Assembly (NCBI GenBank): GCA_016867975.1
Contig: VGIC01000009.1
Span: 1-53,503 of the forward strand
Source: Betaproteobacteria bacterium
GTDB taxonomy: Bacteria > Pseudomonadota > Gammaproteobacteria > Burkholderiales > Methylophilaceae
Direction of reading: 5' to 3'
DNA: 53,503 nucleotides
In this document: one piece after another, positions 1,697 to 9,843 of the stretch
Layout: the number at the start of each line of letters is the position of its first letter
Position numbering within the stretch: the stretch's first letter is position 1
Notes under the pieces: generated by a model
The model's database searches: none
Seen by the model: only the letters and a program-made list of their open reading frames with translations
Told to the model about the DNA's origin: nothing
Translations under genes and position numbers: made by a program

Positions 1697-3021
1697 AACA
1701 GTCAGAAATTAAGGTCTTAAGTGTAGGCATATTGGGCTTAGGGACGGTAGGGGGCGGCACTTATACCGTGTTAAACCGTAATGCGAGTGAAATTACACGT
1801 CGTACGGGCGTGGCAATTAACGTTGTACAAGCCGCAGATAGGCATTTATCACATGCGGAAAGTGTGACGGGCAATGCGGCTATTCTGACTGATGACGCAT
1901 TTGCCGTGGTAAATAATCCCGCAGTGGATGTGGTGGTGGAATTGATTGGAGGCTACACTCTTAGTAAAGAGTTGGTGTTGAAAGCCATTGAGAACAAAAA
2001 ACATGTGGTCACGGCCAATAAAGCGTTAATTGCTTTGCATGGTAACGAGATTTTTGCGGCAGCCAAAGCGAATAATGTCATTGTGGCATTTGAGGCGGCG
2101 GTAGCGGGGGGCATCCCCATCATCAAGGCTTTGCGTGAAGGGTTGGGTGCCAACCGTATTGAGTGGGTGGCTGGTATCATCAATGGTACGACGAACTTTA
2201 TTCTGACAGAGATGCGTGATAAAGGTCTGGGTTATCAGGATGTGATTGGTGAGGCGCAACGTTTGGGGTATGCAGAAGCTGACCCGACCTTTGACGTGGA
2301 AGGCATTGATGCGGCGCATAAATTGACCATTATGTCCGCCATTGCCTTTGGCATGCCGATGAAATTCGAGCAGGCTTATACGGAAGGGATCACTAAACTA
2401 CAGCAGATCGATATCCAATATGCTGAAGAGTTGGGATATCGCGTCAAGTTGTTGGGAATTACTAAGCGGACAACACAAGGAGTTGAGTTGCGTGTTCACC
2501 CTACGCTGGTTCCGGAAAAGCGTTTGGTTGCCAATGTGAACGGTGCAATGAACGCTGTTGTGGTCAAAGGTGATGCGGTGGGTCCAACGCTTTACTACGG
2601 TGCCGGTGCCGGTGCAGAACCAACTGCCAGCGCAGTGGTGGCAGATTTAATGGATGTGGCGCGCTTGATGGATGCAAGCAGTGCGCAGCGTGTGCCTTAC
2701 CTCGCATTTCAGCCGGATCAAGTACAGGATTTACCTATCTTGCCCATGGATGAAGTACAAAGTGCTTACTACTTGCGTCTGCGGGCTAGTGACAAGCCGG
2801 GGGTGCTGGCTGATGTGACGAAGATACTGGGCGATCGCGGCATTTCTATTGATGCCATGATGCAAAAAGAGCCAGACGAGAACGAAACACAAGCCGATAT
2901 CGTGATTCTGACTCATGTCACAGTAGAGAGGAACATGAACGCAGCAATTACAGCAATCGAGGCACTAGAGGCGATTTCAGGCAAGGTCGTGCGTATTCGC
3001 ATGGAAGAGTTGGGGCGGTAA
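1693..3021 (+). CDS. hom: Homoserine dehydrogenase
   Basis: Catalyses NAD(P)H-dependent reduction of aspartate semialdehyde to homoserine, the branch to threonine and methionine. The 442-residue protein has an N-terminal nucleotide-binding loop GILGLGTVGGGTY, the substrate domain with AAVAGGIPIIKALREGL and GIINGTTNFILT, and a C-terminal ACT domain from about residue 350 (ASDKPGVLADVTKIL) typical of the monofunctional, feedback-sensitive form. The start is a TTG at 1693 that overlaps the alaA stop, with GGAG seven bases upstream. thrC follows but is separated by a repeat element; no thrB lies in the gap, so homoserine kinase is encoded elsewhere. Confidence 0.95.
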   Translation: MKQSEIKVLSVGILGLGTVGGGTYTVLNRNASEITRRTGVAINVVQAADRHLSHAESVTGNAAILTDDAFAVVNNPAVDVVVELIGGYTLSKELVLKAIENKKHVVTANKALIALHGNEIFAAAKANNVIVAFEAAVAGGIPIIKALREGLGANRIEWVAGIINGTTNFILTEMRDKGLGYQDVIGEAQRLGYAEADPTFDVEGIDAAHKLTIMSAIAFGMPMKFEQAYTEGITKLQQIDIQYAEELGYRVKLLGITKRTTQGVELRVHPTLVPEKRLVANVNGAMNAVVVKGDAVGPTLYYGAGAGAEPTASAVVADLMDVARLMDASSAQRVPYLAFQPDQVQDLPILPMDEVQSAYYLRLRASDKPGVLADVTKILGDRGISIDAMMQKEPDENETQADIVILTHVTVERNMNAAITAIEALEAISGKVVRIRMEELGR

Positions 3022-3041
3022 AAAATCGTCATTCCAGCGCA

Positions 3042-3079
3042 GTGGTTTAAGCAGGCAATCAGCGAAGCTGATGCTCGCA
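3042..3079 (+). repeat. 38-bp palindromic repeat, copy 1
   Basis: This stretch matches the reverse complement of 18259-18296 at 37 of 38 positions (the one difference is G/A at 3051). It contains the hairpin ATCAGC-GAA-GCTGAT. Here it has replaced the 5' part of the GIY-YIG gene of element A, so it inserted after, or recombined with, that element. Confidence 0.8.
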
Positions 3080-3080
3080 T

Positions 3081-3299
3081 GATTTAATTAAACGGATTTG
3101 GCAACATAAACATGATTGGGTTGAAGAATTTACTAAGCGGTATTTAGTGCATAGTTTGGTCTATTATGAAATCCACGAAACAATGGAGTCTGCGATTGCC
3201 AGAGAGAAAAGTATTAAAGCTTAGAAACGTTCCTGGAAGATTGAATTAATAGAGAAAAGCAATTTAGAGTGGAGTGATTTATATCACGCTTTGTTGTAA
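3081..3299 (+). pseudogene. GIY-YIG endonuclease remnant (copy A)
   Basis: The frame from 3081 reads DLIKRIWQHKHDWVEEF, then EIHETMESAIAREKSIKA, a TAG, and KRSWKIELIEKSN...DLYHALL to a TAA at 3297. It aligns without indels to the GIY-YIG gene at 8735-9066: the catalytic Arg region (LIKRIWQHK), the Glu helix (HETMESAI-REK) and the C-terminal tail are present. The GIY...YIG start of the domain is missing because another repeat adjoins the frame, and the tryptophan codon of the KFWKR segment has become TAG. It is therefore not expected to give an active enzyme. Confidence 0.8.
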
Positions 3300-3344
3300 C
3301 TGGATTCCAGCTTGCGCTGGAATGACGGATGTTTGAGAGATTTT

Positions 3345-4772
3345 ATGAAATACATTTCCACGCGCGGGCAATCTCCCGCATTAAGTTTTAGTCAGATTTT
3401 ACTGGGCGGTCTTGCGCCGGATGGTGGTTTGTATCTGCCAGAAACCTATCCTCAGATTAGCGATGCCGATTTGACTACCATGCGCGGCATGAGCTATGCC
3501 GAGCTTGCCTACGCCATTCTTTCACGCTTTGTGGATGATATTCCTGCGGATGATTTGAGAGCCATCATCAATGAAACTTATTGTGCGGATGTCTATGCGT
3601 ATACGCGTCAAGAGCAAAATGCTGCGGATATCACGCCTATACTGCAACTGGAAGACAATCTGTATTTGTTGAGCTTATCCAATGGGCCTACGCTGGCATT
3701 TAAAGATATGGCCATGCAGTTGTTGGGCAATTTGTTTGAGTACGTACTGACCAAGGAAGGAAAAACGACTAATATCCTTGGTGCAACTTCTGGCGATACT
3801 GGCTCGGCTGCTGAATACGCGATGCGTGGCAAAAAAGGCATCCGCGTATTCATGCTATCCCCACATAAGAAAATGAGCCGTTTTCAGACTGCGCAGATGT
3901 TCAGCTTGCAGGATGAGAACATCTACAACATTGCGGTGAATGGTGTGTTTGATGATTGTCAGGACATGGTGAAAGCCGTGTCTAATGATGCGGCCTTTAA
4001 AGCGCAGTACAAGATTGGCGCAGTGAACTCTATCAACTGGGGACGCATTGTTGCTCAAGTGGTGTATTACTTCAAAGGGTACTTGGCGGTTACACAGAAT
4101 AATGCGCAGAAAGTCAGCTTCTCTGTGCCGTCAGGCAACTTTGGTAATGTCTGCGCAGGCCATATTGCGCGCATGATGGGCTTGCCGATTGACAAGCTGA
4201 TTGTCGCGACGAATGAGAATGATGTGCTGGATGAGTTTTTTAAAACCGGTGTTTACAGTCCGCGTAGTTCAGAGAAAACCTACCACACCTCAAGTCCTTC
4301 CATGGATATCAGCAAAGCTTCCAATTTTGAGCGCTTTGTGTTTGATTTGGTCGGTCGTGACAGCGAAAAAACCCGAACTTTGTGGAGCAAGGTAGATAAC
4401 GGCAACAGCTTTGATTTAAAAGCAGATGGCTATTTTGAAAAAATTGCCGATTATGGATTTGTCTCCGGCAGCAGTAGCCATGCTAGTCGCATGCAGACCA
4501 TACGTGAAGCGCAAGCCAAATATCATGTGGTGATTGATACACACACCGCCGATGGACTGAAAGTCGCTTGGGCTTATTTTGACAAACAAACTCCCATGGT
4601 CGTGCTGGAAACCGCACTGCCAGCCAAGTTTGAAGAGGCTATTATTGAATCGTTGGGTCATGCACCAGAGCGTCCATCTGTATTAAATGGCATCGAGAAC
4701 TTGCCACAGAGATTTACGGTGATGGAAGCTAGTGCCGAGGCGATTAAGGCTTTTATTGTAGAAAACACATAA
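3345..4772 (+). CDS. thrC: Threonine synthase
   Basis: Converts O-phosphohomoserine to threonine with PLP. The ATG at 3345 gives 475 residues beginning MKYISTRGQSPALSF, the normal start for the long threonine synthase class; longer in-frame starts lie inside the adjacent repeat. PLP lysine is in GPTLAFKDMAMQL (about residue 120). GATSGDTGSAAEYAMRG and SVPSGNFGNVCAGH are the phosphate/cofactor loops. Completes the threonine branch begun by hom. The upstream leader is the palindromic end of element A, so the normal hom-thrC junction has been rebuilt by an insertion. Confidence 0.94.
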   Translation: MKYISTRGQSPALSFSQILLGGLAPDGGLYLPETYPQISDADLTTMRGMSYAELAYAILSRFVDDIPADDLRAIINETYCADVYAYTRQEQNAADITPILQLEDNLYLLSLSNGPTLAFKDMAMQLLGNLFEYVLTKEGKTTNILGATSGDTGSAAEYAMRGKKGIRVFMLSPHKKMSRFQTAQMFSLQDENIYNIAVNGVFDDCQDMVKAVSNDAAFKAQYKIGAVNSINWGRIVAQVVYYFKGYLAVTQNNAQKVSFSVPSGNFGNVCAGHIARMMGLPIDKLIVATNENDVLDEFFKTGVYSPRSSEKTYHTSSPSMDISKASNFERFVFDLVGRDSEKTRTLWSKVDNGNSFDLKADGYFEKIADYGFVSGSSSHASRMQTIREAQAKYHVVIDTHTADGLKVAWAYFDKQTPMVVLETALPAKFEEAIIESLGHAPERPSVLNGIENLPQRFTVMEASAEAIKAFIVENT

Positions 4773-4775
4773 TGT

Positions 4776-4925
4776 TGTCATTCTGGCATGCCAGTTCTTG
4801 AGAAAAATCTCTAAAATATTGGCACTGGTTATGGAAAATTCGAATCATTGAACAGTTCAACCCTGATTGGAAAGATTTATACGATGAACTTACTTGACTG
4901 GATTCTGGCCTTCGCCAGAATGACA
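4776..4925 (+). mobile_element. REP-bounded GIY-YIG element, copy B (internal deletion)
   Basis: The ends TGTCATTCTGGC (4776-4787) and GCCAGAATGACA (4914-4925) are perfect 12-bp inverted repeats of the same type as in copies A and C. The right end forms the hairpin ATTCTGGC-CTTC-GCCAGAAT. Only about 150 bp remain, with the last 31 codons of the GIY-YIG gene. The element begins right after the thrC stop and ends eight bases before the thyA ATG, so it makes up the whole thrC-thyA gap. Confidence 0.72.
4802..4897 (+). pseudogene. GIY-YIG endonuclease C-terminal remnant (copy B)
   Basis: The frame reads EKSLKYWHWLWKIRIIEQ then FNPDWKDLYDELT and a TGA at 4895. This is nearly identical to the C-terminus of the copy at 8735-9066 (EKALKFWKRVWKIRLIEQ, FNPNWQDLYTEIL). 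The whole nuclease core is deleted, so this is a fossil. Confidence 0.75.
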
Positions 4926-4933
4926 CCTACACT

Positions 4934-5728
4934 ATGAAACAATACCACGACCTTTTGAACCATGTATCACAGCATGGCCATAAAAAAGAAGACCGTACCG
5001 GTACAGGCACACTTTCCGTATTTGGTTATCAGATGCGCTTTAATCTGGCAGAGGGATTTCCGCTGCTGACAACCAAGAAAGTGCATCTTAAGTCGATTAT
5101 TCATGAGTTGTTGTGGTTCTTGCAAGGCAGTACGAATATTAAATACCTGAAAGACAATGGTGTCAGCATTTGGGATGAATGGGCGGATACGCAGGGGAAT
5201 CTTGGACCTGTTTATGGTTATCAATGGCGCAATTGGCCCAAGCCAGATGGCACGCACATCGACCAGATCACACAGGCGGTCAATGCGATTAAAAAGAACC
5301 CAGACTCGCGCCGATTGATTGTTTCAGCGTGGAATGTGGCAGATGTAGATCAGATGAAACTGCCGCCATGTCATGCATTCTTCCAGTTTTACGTGGCGGA
5401 TGGTCGACTGAGCTGTCAGCTCTATCAGCGCAGTGCCGATATCTTTTTGGGCGTGCCCTTCAATATCGCGTCCTATGCGCTGTTAACCATGATGGTTGCG
5501 CAGGTTTGTCATTTAAAACTGGGTGACTTTGTGCATACATTGGGTGATGCGCATATCTATCTCAATCATCTGGAGCAGGTGAACGAGCAATTGTCACGCA
5601 GTCCGCGTGCATTGCCAACCATGCATATCAATCCGGACGTGAGTGATATCTTCAGTTTTAAATATGAAGACTTTACGCTTGAGAACTACGACCCGCATCC
5701 AGCGATTAAAGCACCTGTGGCAGTTTAA
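4934..5728 (+). CDS. thyA: Thymidylate synthase
   Basis: Makes dTMP from dUMP with methylene-tetrahydrofolate. The 264-residue length equals the E. coli enzyme. Folate/dUMP motifs are visible: [16 protein letters not shown], the catalytic cysteine in [12 protein letters not shown] (Cys146), and [17 protein letters not shown]. The C-terminal APVAV closes the active site as in the family. folA, which regenerates tetrahydrofolate, follows after a 235-bp repeat element. No clear Shine-Dalgarno is present, because the eight bases before the ATG follow directly on the end of element B. Confidence 0.97.
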
Positions 5729-5963
5729 TCCTAAAAACCACAGTTAATCGCTTGATTACTCTATAAGCACTTATGAATATTAATCATTTTTGTTTTAACC
5801 CAACTCACTTAATGGGTGAGAGCGCTTTCACGTCGATTACACGGTTTTTGAGATGTCTGGCGGCGTTACTCTTCGTTGCAGGGGGCAGCCATGCTGCCTC
5901 ATCGTGCCTTGCCGTACACCCCAAAAACCGCATACCCAACGTGTTTAACTACGGTTTCTAGGA
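5729..5963 (+). mobile_element. ~235-bp TIR element, copy 1 (MITE-like)
   Basis: The left end TCCTAAAAACCACAGTTAA (5729-5747) and right end TTAACTACGGTTTCTAGGA (5945-5963) are inverted repeats with 16 of 19 matches. The interior aligns along its length with 30940-31169: shared landmarks are CTATAAGC, ACTCA-TTAATGGGTGA / ATCCAATGGGTGA, GCGCTTTCAC, ATGTCTGGCG, CTTCGTTGCAGGGG and CCGCATACxCAACGTGTTT. No intact reading frame is conserved between the copies. It starts directly after the thyA TAA and ends two bases before the folA ATG. Confidence 0.7.
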
Positions 5964-5965
5964 TA

Positions 5966-6448
5966 ATGCAGAATCTCTCTGTTATAGTCGCGGTCGCAAA
6001 TAATAACGTGATTGGCCTAGATAACACCTTACCTTGGCATTTGCCTGAAGATTTAAAGCGTTTCCGTGCATTAACGACAGGGCACCACATCATTATGGGC
6101 CGTAAGACCTATGAATCTCTCAGGCGCCTGTTGCCCGGGCGCACGACGGTGATTGTGACGCGCAACCCACAATACAAAATCGAAGGTGCTTTGATCGCAC
6201 ATTCATTAGAGGCGGCCATGGCATTGTGCCGCAATGATGATGAAGCCTTTTTAATTGGCGGTGCCGAACTTTATCAGCATGGGCTTGATCTCGCTAATAA
6301 ACTCTATATGACTGAAATTGCGATTGAGGTGAAGGGAGATGCACATTTCCCTGCGCTAGATATGAGTCAATGGCAGGAATCTGCCCGTGAGGCGCATGTG
6401 TCTGAAAAAGGGCTGGAGTTTGGCTATGTGACCTATGTGCGTAAATAG
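5966..6448 (+). CDS. folA: Dihydrofolate reductase
   Basis: Reduces dihydrofolate to tetrahydrofolate, closing the cycle driven by ThyA. Starting at 5966 the protein is 160 residues, the family norm; an upstream start at 5876 would only add residues translated from the repeat. Visible motifs are NNVIGLDNTLPWHLPEDLK (substrate acid in the LPEDLK helix), HIIMGRKTYESL and FLIGGAELYQ (NADPH loop). The only ribosome-binding candidate, AGGA at 5960-5963, is the last bases of the repeat and lies just two bases from the ATG, which is unusually close. Confidence 0.95.
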   Translation: MQNLSVIVAVANNNVIGLDNTLPWHLPEDLKRFRALTTGHHIIMGRKTYESLRRLLPGRTTVIVTRNPQYKIEGALIAHSLEAAMALCRNDDEAFLIGGAELYQHGLDLANKLYMTEIAIEVKGDAHFPALDMSQWQESAREAHVSEKGLEFGYVTYVRK

Positions 6449-6482
6449 TGAGTAAATAGCACATCTGTCACGTAGCCTGTAT

Positions 6483-8726
6483 TTATTCCTGCGCTACACA
6501 GTCCACGTAATACACCGCCTTGCCATCCACCACTTGTTTGACTAAGCCGTGGTTATCTGTTTCAAACCCGGGGAATTTCTCGTTGAATTCACGCGCAAAT
6601 TTCAGATAATTCACAATCACTTTGTTGAACTGCTCACCCGGAATTAACAATGGAATGCCAGGTGGGTAGGGAGTCAGCAGCACTGCCGTGACGCGGCCTT
6701 CTAGATCATCAATAGGCACACGGTCGATCTTGCGGTGCGCCATCTTGGCAAATGCATCGGTTGGCTTCATGGCAGGCACCATGTCTGATAGGTACATCTC
6801 GGTAGTCAGCCTTGCAACATCGTTGGCTTTGTAAACCTGATGAATTTGTGTGCATAGATCTTTTAGACCTACACGCTCATAACGAGGGTGTTTCTGCACA
6901 AATTCCGGCAAAATTTTCCATAGCGGCTGATTTTTATCGTAGTCATCTTTGAATTGCTGTAAAGCGGCCACCATGGTGTTCCAGCGACCTTTGGTGATGC
7001 CGATGGTGAACATGATGAAGAACGAGTATAAGCCAGTCTTTTCAACGATCACACCATGTTCAGCCAAGTATTTAGTGACGATGGCTGCCGGAATACCAAA
7101 CTCATCTGAGAAGTCTCCGTGAATATCCAAACCTGGGGTGATGATGGTCGCCTTAATCGGATCCAGCATATTGAAACCTTCAGCCAGATTGCCGAAACCA
7201 TGCCATTTTTCATTGGCTTTTAGCATCCATGATTCACGTTCTTCAATGCCTTCTTCTGACAGGTCGTTTGGTCCCCAAACCTTGAACCACCAGTCAGCAC
7301 CCCATTCCTCGTCCACCTTGCGCATGGCGCGGCGGAAGTCCAAAGCCTCCATAATGGATTCTTCAACCAGTGCAGTACCACCAGGGGCTTCCATCATTGC
7401 TGCTGCAACGTCACAGCTGGCAATAATCGAATATTGCGGGCTGGTAGAGGTGTGCATCAGGTAGGCTTCATTGAACATATCACGATCAAGGTTGTTTTGC
7501 TCGGCATCCTGCACCAGAATCTGTGAAGCCTGACTTAAGCCGGCAAGCAGTTTGTGGGTGGATTGCGTAGAGAACACCATGCTTTCCTTACAGCGCGGCC
7601 GATCTGCACCAATGGCATGATAATCACCGTAGAAATCATGGAACGTTGCATGCGGTAGCCATGCTTCGTCGAAGTGCAGGGTGTCAATCTTGCCATCGAG
7701 CATCTCTTTGATTTCTTCTACGTTATACAGCACGCCGTCATAAGTGGATTGCGTGATGGTGAGTACGCGTGGTTTGGCATTTTTGTCTGTAGCGAATGGA
7801 TTGCGCTCGATTTTTTTCTGAATGTTCTCCCATGAGAACTCTGACTTGGGAATTGGGCCGATGATGCCGAAGTGGTTACGTGTCGGCATCAAAAATACGG
7901 GGATTGCACCTGTCATGATAATCGAGTGAAGTACTGATTTATGGCAGTTGCGGTCAACGACGACGATATCACCTGGTGCAACAGTAGAGTTCCAGACGAT
8001 CTTGTTTGAGGTCGAAGTGCCGTTGGTTACAAAATACAAATGATCACAGTTATAGATGCGAGCAGCATTGCGTTCAGAAGCTGCGACTGGACCGGTATGG
8101 TCCAGTAATTGTCCGAGCTCATCCACCGCATTGCAGACGTCAGCACGCAACATGTTCTCACCAAAGAACTGATGAAACATTTGTCCGACAGGCGATTTTA
8201 AGAACGCCACGCCGCCCGAGTGTCCTGGGCAATGCCATGAATATGAGCCATCTGCAGCATAATGGGTCAGTGCTTTGAAGAATGGAGGCGGGAGGCTGTC
8301 TAGATAGGTCCGTGCCTCTCGAATAATCAGTCGTGCCACGAATTCCGGTGTATCCTCGTTCATGTGAATGAACCCGTGTAACTCACGCAATACATCGTTA
8401 GGAATGTGGCGTGAGGTGCGAGTTTCGCCATGTAAGAAAATTGGAATTTCCTCATTGCGGTGACGAATTTCAGCCACAAACTTTCTTAATTGCTCAATCG
8501 CTTCAGGGTTTTCTTCAATGAACTCTTCATCGTCTATGGAGAGAATAAACGCGGAAGCGCGGCTTTGCTGTTGTGCAAAGGAGGTTAGGTCGCCGTAGCT
8601 GGTAACTCCCAGTACCTCTATGCCCTCATCTTCAATCGCTTTAGCGAGTACACGTATGCCTAGGCCAGAAGAATTTTCTGAGCGAAAGTCTTCGTCGATG
8701 ATGACGACGGGAAATCTAAATTTCAT
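6483..8726 (-). CDS. Orn/Lys/Arg decarboxylase, AdiA-like (747 aa)
   Basis: A large fold-type I PLP decarboxylase with three parts: a receiver-like wing domain (about 1-135), the PLP domain and a C-terminal domain. Key segments are SWHCPGHSGGVAFLKSP, NGTSTSNKIVW, DRNCHKSVLHS, LHFDEAWLPHATFHDFYGD and the PLP lysine in STQSTHKLLAGLSQ (Lys392). YPPGIPLLIPGE is the late signature. Length and order match biodegradative arginine decarboxylase more than lysine decarboxylase, but the substrate cannot be settled by eye; polyamine or acid-stress roles are both possible. Convergent with folA, 34 bp apart, with no terminator seen. Confidence 0.88.
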   Translation of the reverse strand: MKFRFPVVIIDEDFRSENSSGLGIRVLAKAIEDEGIEVLGVTSYGDLTSFAQQQSRASAFILSIDDEEFIEENPEAIEQLRKFVAEIRHRNEEIPIFLHGETRTSRHIPNDVLRELHGFIHMNEDTPEFVARLIIREARTYLDSLPPPFFKALTHYAADGSYSWHCPGHSGGVAFLKSPVGQMFHQFFGENMLRADVCNAVDELGQLLDHTGPVAASERNAARIYNCDHLYFVTNGTSTSNKIVWNSTVAPGDIVVVDRNCHKSVLHSIIMTGAIPVFLMPTRNHFGIIGPIPKSEFSWENIQKKIERNPFATDKNAKPRVLTITQSTYDGVLYNVEEIKEMLDGKIDTLHFDEAWLPHATFHDFYGDYHAIGADRPRCKESMVFSTQSTHKLLAGLSQASQILVQDAEQNNLDRDMFNEAYLMHTSTSPQYSIIASCDVAAAMMEAPGGTALVEESIMEALDFRRAMRKVDEEWGADWWFKVWGPNDLSEEGIEERESWMLKANEKWHGFGNLAEGFNMLDPIKATIITPGLDIHGDFSDEFGIPAAIVTKYLAEHGVIVEKTGLYSFFIMFTIGITKGRWNTMVAALQQFKDDYDKNQPLWKILPEFVQKHPRYERVGLKDLCTQIHQVYKANDVARLTTEMYLSDMVPAMKPTDAFAKMAHRKIDRVPIDDLEGRVTAVLLTPYPPGIPLLIPGEQFNKVIVNYLKFAREFNEKFPGFETDNHGLVKQVVDGKAVYYVDCVAQE

Positions 8727-8734
8727 AGTAACCT

Positions 8735-9066
8735 TTATGTGTTATTACCTTTGTCGTCATTCTGGCGCAGGCCAGAATCCAGACCAAGTATTTCAGTATA
8801 TAAATCTTGCCAGTTTGGATTAAATTGCTCTATAAGGCGTATTTTCCAAACTCGCTTCCAGAATTTAAGCGCTTTTTCTCTCGTAATTGCAGATTCCATG
8901 GTTTCATGAGGTTCATACCAAACCAAAGTATGTAATTTGTACTTCTTGGTAAGCCCTCTGCTACTTTATTTTTGTGTTGCCATATGCGTTTAATTAGGTC
9001 TGATGTAACGCCTATGTATAACGTTCCATTGCGCTGGTTTGTCATCATGTAAACACATGGTTGCAT
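8735..9066 (-). pseudogene. GIY-YIG endonuclease, single frameshift (copy C)
   Basis: From the ATG at 9066 the frame reads MQPCVYMMTNQRNGTLYIGV (GIY-YIG core), then SDLIKRIWQHKNKVAEG with the catalytic Arg region. Near 8955 one T is missing compared with an expected GGC-TTT-ACC; in the next frame the protein continues TKKYKLHTLVWYEPHETMES, AITREKALKFWKRVWKI, RLIEQFNPNWQDLYTEILG. The two overlapping frames together give one UvrC-N-terminus/YhbQ-type single-domain nuclease of about 95 residues. The last residues, [15 protein letters not shown], are encoded by the terminal repeat itself. A sequencing error or programmed shift is possible, but simple decay is likelier. Confidence 0.82.
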
Positions 9067-9107
9067 ATTTGGTTTGTCTGGATTCTAGCCTACGCCAGAA
9101 TGACGAC
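8753..9107 (-). mobile_element. REP-bounded GIY-YIG element, copy C (most complete)
   Basis: The ends at 8753-8784 and 9076-9107 are 32-bp inverted repeats differing at two positions; both begin GTCGTCATTCTGGCG at the outer edge and contain the hairpin arms ATTCTGGC and GCCAGAAT. The interior is a GIY-YIG endonuclease gene in - orientation, complete apart from one frameshift. At about 355 bp this is the reference copy for the family, also seen at 3027-3327 and 4776-4925. It separates the decarboxylase from dcd. Confidence 0.82.
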
Positions 9108-9125
9108 CTTCCGAGGATTATGCAA

Positions 9126-9701
9126 TTAGATTTTTGGCAATGTTACACCGACTTGGCCTTGATATTTTCCACCACGGTCTTTGTAGCTGGTTTCGCAGAC
9201 GTCATCTTCGTCGGCTTCAAAAAACAGTACTTGTGCACAGCCTTCATTCGCATAAATCTTTGCTGGCAACGGTGTGGTGTTGCTGAACTCCAGTGTAACG
9301 TAGCCTTCCCACTCTGGCTCAAAAGGGGTCACATTTACAATGATACCGCAACGTGCATAGGTCGATTTTCCTAGGCAAACAGTTAAGACGTTGCGTGGAA
9401 TACGGAAATATTCGACCGTACGTGCCAGTGCGAACGAGTTAGGTGGGATGATGCAATAGTCTGCATTCACTTCAACAAATGAGTTGGGGTCAAAGTTCTT
9501 GGGGTCAACAATGGTGCTATTGAGATTGGTGAACAGCTTGAATTCTCTGGAACAGCGGATGTCGTAACCGTAACTTGACGTGCCATATGAAACCAAACGT
9601 TGACCATCCGGAGATGTTTTGACTTGCCCCGGCTCGAATGGCTCAATCATGCCGTGTTGTTCTGCCATTTTACGAATCCATTTGTCTGATTTAATGCTCA
9701 T
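9126..9701 (-). CDS. dcd: dCTP deaminase
   Basis: Deaminates dCTP to dUTP, feeding dUMP to thymidylate synthase. The 191 residues fit the trimeric bacterial enzyme (E. coli 193). Visible are [36 protein letters not shown], the catalytic region [20 protein letters not shown], and [21 protein letters not shown]. Upstream lies a long hairpin (9719-9777) that could end zwf transcripts or overlap the dcd promoter: TTGAAT and TATATA on the minus strand, 16 bp apart, fall within and just after it. Confidence 0.95.
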
Positions 9702-9718
9702 AGGGATGCCTGCTATAT

Positions 9719-9777
9719 AAAAAACGATGCACTTTATTCAATGCGCGAAAATGAATTACGCATTATAAAGTGCATCG
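9719..9777 (-). terminator. Long hairpin plus T-run between zwf and dcd
   Basis: The arms 9725-9745 and 9759-9777 pair along 19 bp with a two-base bulge, the outer pairs being CGATGCAC/GTGCATCG. On the minus strand the structure is followed by six T (9724-9719), the form of an intrinsic terminator for zwf. The same bases contain a possible dcd promoter (TTGAAT ending in the stem, TATATA after the T-run), so it may instead be an operator. Confidence 0.5.
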
Positions 9778-9843
9778 GTTGTTAAAGGGTTAAAACTGTT
9801 AAAAATATGGGGGTCAATGCTTGTAGCTTCGGTCGCTACGCTT

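Follow-up and report, generated by a model that had tools for sequence, protein, structure and literature searches.

The closest described systems are the REPtrons, in which the gene of a repetitive extragenic palindrome (REP)-associated tyrosine transposase (RAYT) lies between inverted, tagged palindromes, and the REP doublets forming hairpins (REPINs), which are non-autonomous dimers in the same genome (PMC2817692 and PMC3116915). The CGTC REPs form a superfamily with a CGTC, TGTC, or CCTC tag, a stem of 8 to 9 bp starting with AT, a loop of 4 to 5 nucleotides (nt), and a CCA tail, and include dRS3 of Neisseria and RPE-6 and RPE-4 of Rickettsia (PMC3733652). According to the same source (Di Nocera et al., 2013), CGTC REPs "apparently lack a dedicated transposase," and no tyrosine transposase gene was found flanked by them. 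Here we describe a 53,503-nt stretch of DNA (the window) from a betaproteobacterium of the Methylophilaceae (GCA_016867975.1, contig VGIC01000009.1) that holds three small units, each composed of the remnants of one GIY-YIG nuclease gene and inverted palindromic ends.

The palindromes of the window resemble the CGTC REPs of PMC3733652 in having a CGTC or TGTC tag, an 8-bp stem beginning with AT, a 4-nt loop, and a CCA tail, and in forming dimers with the tags outward (head to head). They fit the group CGTC-1, and that source would class the unit as a head-to-head dimer whose spacer is a gene. Whereas the CGTC REPs were described there without a dedicated enzyme, here genes of a single clade, which we call type A, lie between the REPs. 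The architecture is that of the REPtron, but type A is a GIY-YIG protein and not an HUH/Y1 tyrosine transposase, and the tag is CGTC or TGTC instead of GTAG. The type A system thus works like a RAYT/REP system without being a member, since it has neither the HUH enzyme nor the GTAG tag. Given the association of gene and REPs and the mobility of the unit, both reported below, we consider it likely that type A nucleases mobilize CGTC REPs as RAYTs mobilize GTAG REPs; the catalysis is inferred. A link of GIY-YIG proteins to REPs was not found in the open-licence literature, which is not proof of absence.

Three decayed units in the window

The window is one of the 44 contigs (C9) that make up an assembly of 1.56 Mb; the names hom, thrC, thyA, folA, and dcd are our readings of the translations. 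The first-pass annotation of this DNA had reported three copies of one gene with shared palindromes, and a repeat search, a REP finder, and the type A profile described below all found them. The best kept is copy C (355 bp; 8753..9107, minus strand), which lies between a gene for a pyridoxal phosphate (PLP)-type decarboxylase (8726 to 6483, minus strand) and dcd. In the repeat search its arms, 8753-8787 and 9073-9107, were 91% complementary over 35 nt. It has one CGTC REP on the 3' side of the gene (8755..8781, plus strand) and another on the 5' side (9079..9105, minus strand), both with the tag outward. Between them the type A gene (8786..9066, minus strand) is split over two frames, the N-terminal part (8941-9066) covering model positions 1-42 and the C-terminal part (8786-8968) positions 34-94.

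Copy A (3027..3327, plus strand) lies between hom, which ends at 3021, and thrC, and has inverted-repeat arms at 3020-3041 and 3313-3334 that are 86% complementary. Its right CGTC REP (3301..3327, minus strand) is complete (stem 8, loop 4, tail CCA). Only the tag and the 5' arm are left of the left CGTC REP (3027..3042, plus strand), which was recognized by its sequence and by a direct repeat shared with copy C. The gene remnant (3075..3293, plus strand) covers model positions 21-93; the first ~20 codons, including the start, are gone, and it contains one TAG. Copy B (4776..4925, plus strand), between thrC and thyA, is internally deleted. It keeps a C-terminal part of the gene (4787..4894, plus strand; model positions 59-94, with one TGA) and a complete right REP with a TGTC tag (4899..4925, minus strand), and it matches the C-terminal half of copy C in inverted orientation over 136 nt at 71%. 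Its left REP is degenerate, so that the left REPs of both copies A and B are broken.

Thus, all three genes are dead, as the annotation had said, and its descriptions of the ends as inverted and of the gene as GIY-YIG also held. The Pfam domain PF01541 was matched above its cut-off in copy C (34.1 bits) and just below it in copy A (22.0 bits versus 22.6), and the type A profile matched copy A with 111 bits, copy B with 38, and the two pieces of copy C with 94 and 69. An exception was the claim that the TGGATTC side marks the C terminus of the gene; the gene has a TGGATTC...GAATGAC end on either side, and these are inverted copies of each other. The REP finder located four complete CGTC REPs in the 53.5-kb window (3301-3326, 4899-4924, 8756-8781, and 9079-9104), all inside copies A to C. 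Across the genome itself, GTCATTCYNG occurs 39 times versus 9 times for the reversed control. We conclude that all three sites represent decayed forms of one ~350-bp mobile unit, which consists of a CGTC REP, a type A nuclease gene, and an inverted CGTC REP, with the tags outward. There was no Rfam match across positions 2400-9800 of the window. Between thyA and folA lies an inverted repeat (5829-5943) that is imperfect, 33 nt long, and interrupted by a gap of 49 nt; it is unlike the REPs.

The type A nucleases and their flanking palindromes

In a set of 120 genomes at the family level, we took the 30 loci with the best PF01541 matches. A CGTC REP lay within 400 bp at ten of them, and at all ten the protein was of a single kind (QPCVYILASKRNGTLYIGVTSDL...), type A, which was present at 11 loci in total; YhbQ-like genes (type B) were without CGTC REPs. 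Type B belongs to the YhbQ-like proteins of UPF0213 (COG2827). An alignment of the ten type A proteins gave the profile with which the genomes of 84,980 species were scanned. At least 574 relatives were confirmed, of which the best 80 were analyzed. Because relatives were searched for by protein only, REPs were not selected for. At these 80 loci, the density of CGTC REPs was 3.47/kb within 250 bp versus 0.072/kb beyond 500 bp, and REPs with outward tags lay upstream at 41 loci, downstream at 44, and on both sides at 28. Among the 30 best loci at the class level, 23 had a REP within 250 bp, and 20 had REPs on both sides.

A pooled, dereplicated set of 131 type A, 40 type B, and 37 type C loci (type C being a third clade, described below) was drawn from L020-L189, L205-L211, and L272-L309, omitting L001-L019, L190-L204, and L212-L271. 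Loci with less than 60 bp of flank were excluded, and the removal of two near-duplicates reduced 210 loci to 208. In a tree of the 208 rows, types A, B, and C each fell on one side of a branch, with supports of 100, 85, and 65, from an alignment of few columns. Four loci (L136-L138 and L299) were assigned to type B by hand after their repeat scores were known; the later tree agrees with the assignment. Under a rule using scores only, inverted flanks were present at 30/41 type C and 0/36 type B loci.

A CGTC REP was within 300 bp at 104 of the 131 type A loci, and 13 more had another palindrome or an inverted flank. The same distance gave no CGTC REP at any of the 40 type B or 37 type C loci. 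The first-pass annotation had raised the possibility that the ends are equally common around unrelated genes. They are not: among the genome-scan loci, 64 of 78 type A genes had a CGTC REP within 300 bp versus 30 of 421 other open reading frames in the same loci. We also scored inverted flanks by comparing 250 bp upstream with 300 bp downstream, with a threshold of at least 14. This score was reached at 89/131 type A loci, 30/37 type C loci, and 0/40 type B loci, compared with 1/280 random places and 6/456 other genes. A pair of REPs with outward tags, counted strictly on both sides, was found at 58/131 type A loci versus 2/456 other genes (on at least one side, 93/131). REP density per noncoding kb was 9.93 near type A genes and 0.63 far from them, an enrichment of 15.8-fold. 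The left and right REPs of one element are alike; the stems were identical in 36 of the 58 pairs versus 17% between elements (permutation P = 0.0005).

Type A relatives were also found in 33 records of a plasmid collection, including those of Neisseria gonorrhoeae, Sinorhizobium meliloti, Azospirillum lipoferum, and Novosphingobium aromaticivorans. At the genus or species level, hosts of CGTC REPs named in PMC3733652 (Neisseria, A. lipoferum, N. aromaticivorans, and S. meliloti) have type A records. Among nine of the 33 plasmid records, four had CGTC REPs within 350 bp, three had inverted flanks of variant sequence, and two had neither. On plasmid p1 of Planktothrix agardhii (L308), a type A gene without CGTC REPs lies between an MmeI-type restriction gene and the DISARM gene drmA. 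Viral contigs contained 19 relatives, with CGTC REPs at 10/19 and inverted flanks at 12/19. That type A is mostly phage-borne was not supported; beside the 19 relatives on viral contigs, the phage collection gave only 10 records, at 36 to 37% identity. The type A unit exists in many phyla and is clade specific.

The type A protein has ~94 amino acids, consists of the catalytic domain only, and is encoded in intergenic gaps. In the Pfam scan it matched PF01541 above the cut-off, with 60.1 bits, and there was no match to PF01797 (Y1_Tnp). Residues Y6, Y17, G19, R27, H31, E65, K69, and N84 are conserved at 99 to 100% over 131 rows (1.00 for Y6, Y17, R27, and H31, and 0.99 for E65); the catalytic residues of GIY-YIG enzymes are Tyr, Tyr, Arg, and Glu. 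The genes are under purifying selection, with a median ratio of nonsynonymous to synonymous substitution rates (dN/dS) of 0.074 over 19 pairs, some with saturated dS, and 77 of the best 80 genome-scan matches contain no stop.

The structural model (predicted local distance difference test score [pLDDT], 95.4) is a single GIY-YIG domain. No solved structure matched type A by sequence at an E value below 0.1; by fold, the model matched the UPF0213 protein BH0048 (1zg2; E = 4e-4), Slx1 (0.026), the N-terminal domain of UvrC (0.053), and I-TevI (0.36). The small UPF0213 proteins of YhbQ-like type (type B) thus include the closest solved fold and are of similar size, but they form a separate clade in which 0/40 loci have inverted flanks or CGTC REPs. 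GIY-YIG homing endonucleases of the I-TevI kind share the catalytic domain, with weak profile and fold similarity; unlike them, type A has no separate DNA-binding domain and no intron, and is intergenic with palindromic ends. Slx1, of the Slx1-Slx4 complex, is the second-best fold, and the titles of its solved entries mention branched DNA, which makes it a model for action on hairpins. Unlike type A, it belongs to a eukaryotic repair complex and to no mobile element. Because Slx1 works on branched DNA, a hairpin substrate for type A is plausible.

The third clade, type C (...YYTGHTDNL...), bears palindromes of its own, with the matched inverted flanks at 30/37 loci given above. The motif GAGCYTGTCGAA was present within 1.5 kb on each side at 8/10 true type C loci versus 0/24 lower-scoring loci. 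Among phylum-level loci, the 27 with the best type C scores had inverted-flank scores of 10 to 53, with 25 of them at 14 or higher (for example, TCATCCTGAGG...CCTCGAAGGATGA); two type B loci scored 7 and 8. A fourth dead GIY-YIG copy, of type C, lies outside the window in the same genome (G000:C27:4658-4882; L003/L135) and has CCGTTCG...TGAGCTTGTCGAA palindromes on both sides, so that this genome holds a second gene-palindrome system. We lean toward the view that stand-alone GIY-YIG nucleases are an unrecognized class of bacterial mobile-element enzymes, in which at least two clades would drive palindrome superfamilies of their own, CGTC REPs for type A and CCTGAGC(T/C)TGTCGAAGG or TCATCCTGAGG...CCTCGAAGGATGA for type C.

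Gain, loss, and multiplication of units

We compared 52 genomes of the genus, with 30 loci per search. The gene was present at site A in 9/28, at site B in 4/28, and at site C in 3/27 typed genomes; in one further genome (G413), the site C unit was split across two contigs. Hence the units are not fixed at the same loci, a possibility that the first-pass annotation had named as fatal to its proposal. At site C, G006 and G398 have two complete REPs and gene matches of 172 and 161 bits, respectively. G006 carries units at sites A and C and its sister G411 carries none (support 99). In a second sister pair, also with support 99, sites B and C are filled in the window genome, whereas G060 has unit-free spacers there (8 bp and 229 bp, respectively). 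Thus, congeners differ in whether a given site is occupied by the unit, and the unit is mobile, although the divergence of the congeners is too high for exact insertion points to be read. Several empty site B spacers, in G060 and in others, are 6 to 9 bp long and contain no palindrome; a prior REP therefore seems unneeded there. One empty hom-thrC site (L223) contains a symmetric CGTCATTCC...GGAATGACAG hairpin with both tags outward. Altered versions of it occur in hom-thrC or thrC-thyA spacers (L225-L227), with matching changes on both arms in L225 and L226. On the thrC tree, such symmetric hairpins may be read either as a scar left by a lost unit or as a target.

Derivatives without the gene have multiplied. 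Genome G302 holds 87 REPs by pattern and 18 distinct REP-to-REP units, of which one is full (with a gene spacer of 308 bp) and 17 are gene-less with the same REP ends. The spacers of the latter, of 39, 65, 91, 117 to 118, and 150 to 160 bp, are made of pieces of the gene; three 65-bp units nested in units of 150 to 151 bp were each counted once. One derivative had 184 matches in this genome, many of them to the REP ends only. In several copies (L310-L339), a derivative made of gene fragments contains a single inserted REP flanked on each side by GAAG, which is a possible target duplication; there was no consistent rule. In genome G146, three copies with the same N-terminal truncation lie on three contigs with unrelated flanks. 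Two of them share 372 identical bases, and the third shares 333 to 337 and has a different right end. These units (L201-L203) have an extra palindrome outside the REPs, of the type GGCG..GTTAATTAACG..GCC. Copy B of the window is the same kind of internally deleted derivative. With their multiplied gene-less copies and shared ends, these sets resemble miniature inverted-repeat transposable elements (MITEs) and REPINs, and multiplication of gene-less units implies help in trans.

Candidate movers of the CGTC REPs

We tabulated 274 genomes at the class level, calling type A above ~90 bits, a cut set by eye, and leaving four fragment matches uncounted. At least two CGTC REPs and type A occurred together in 37 genomes, REPs only in 34, type A only in 23, and neither in 180 (odds ratio, 8.5; P = 1.4e-11, ignoring phylogeny). 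The REP pattern read backwards gave no match among the rows listed. For REPs and Y1_Tnp, the odds ratio was 2.3 (P = 0.006, again ignoring phylogeny), and the link to type A persisted within both Y1-positive and Y1-negative genomes. The presence of CGTC REPs thus tracks type A better than it tracks Y1/RAYT transposases.

In the mechanism that we propose, the single-domain nuclease, the nearest fold to which after UPF0213 is Slx1, would recognize the tagged REP hairpin and nick or cut at its foot, and the unit would then be released or copied into new sites. Its action would extend in trans to REP dimers and to internally deleted units, the nuclease being to CGTC REPs what RAYT is to GTAG REPs. 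The first-pass annotation had instead proposed "REP-homing," in which an existing REP or other palindrome is cleaved by the nuclease and then receives the gene through repair templated by a gene-bearing unit, the REPs spreading by other means. The complete REP dimers that bracket the gene at some loci (such as L085, L112, and L303), the hairpin at the empty hom-thrC site with its altered versions, and the CGTC-1 dimers of Halothiobacillus neapolitanus that lie inside longer palindromes (PMC3733652) all speak for such homing. The short empty site B spacers without a palindrome do not, and leave it unsupported as stated; in addition, the gene-less units of G302 hold gene fragments between their REPs, so that REP and gene moved together. 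We regard homing as an unlikely but live rival. The annotation's broader idea, that of a real unit with REP-type palindromic ends, a linked GIY-YIG gene, mobility, and gain and loss, was supported; its core was right in direction and is far more general than could be seen from the window alone, with the action of the enzyme on REPs inferred.

Alternatively, RAYT or IS200-type Y1 transposases could move CGTC REPs, with the GIY-YIG protein a passenger or a caretaker that trims REP hairpins. The weak association of Y1_Tnp with CGTC REPs and the purifying selection on type A genes would suit this explanation, which we nevertheless judge quite improbable. The Y1_Tnp association had a P value of 0.098 when type A genomes were left out and of 0.14 overall at 10 or more REPs, and neither G173, with 257 REPs, nor G302, the assembly of which is 87% complete, had a Y1_Tnp match; the survey of Di Nocera et al. 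cited above points the same way. Chance flanking of small intergenic genes by ordinary terminator-like palindromes is hardly credible. REPs are indeed mostly intergenic, as are type A genes, but the enrichment persists after normalization to noncoding DNA, the tags point outward, CGTC REPs are confined to one clade (none at type B or C loci), the left and right stems match, and the presence of units at a given site varies between genomes.

Several results weigh against the proposal that type A nucleases move CGTC REPs. Fourteen of the 131 type A loci have neither a CGTC REP nor any other inverted or palindromic flank (in 4 of them the contig extends for less than 250 bp to one side), so that the coupling of these genes to such ends expected by the first-pass annotation holds for the rest and not for all. 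On the protein tree, REP loop class changed 12 times versus 13.2 times when shuffled; it does not follow the tree, and coevolution of enzyme and REP by loop class is thus unsupported. Read by eye, the flanks in G146 and G302 showed no consistent target duplication. Of the 71 genomes with at least two REPs, 34, including one with 84 REPs, had no type A match above ~90 bits. Some of the 34 are incompletely assembled, and a type A fragment is present in a few (G379 and G346). The absence of a match fits repeats that outlive their enzyme, yet it counts against a simple rule. Conversely, 23 of 60 type A genomes had fewer than two REPs by the pattern, which misses long-loop and variant REPs.

CGTC REPs, including dRS3 of Neisseria and the RPEs of Rickettsia, span several phyla, and what moves them has been an open question since the 2013 survey (PMC3733652). 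A named enzyme of ~94 residues beside them makes that question testable in vitro and in a laboratory strain. What is new is the class of enzyme; the chemistry of movement would be as proposed above. If the proposal is true, two unrelated kinds of nuclease, HUH and GIY-YIG, have each come to mobilize palindromic repeats within the same architecture of tagged hairpin, gene, and tagged hairpin, and genes now annotated merely as GIY-YIG nuclease family proteins or subunit C of excinuclease ABC would have a role.

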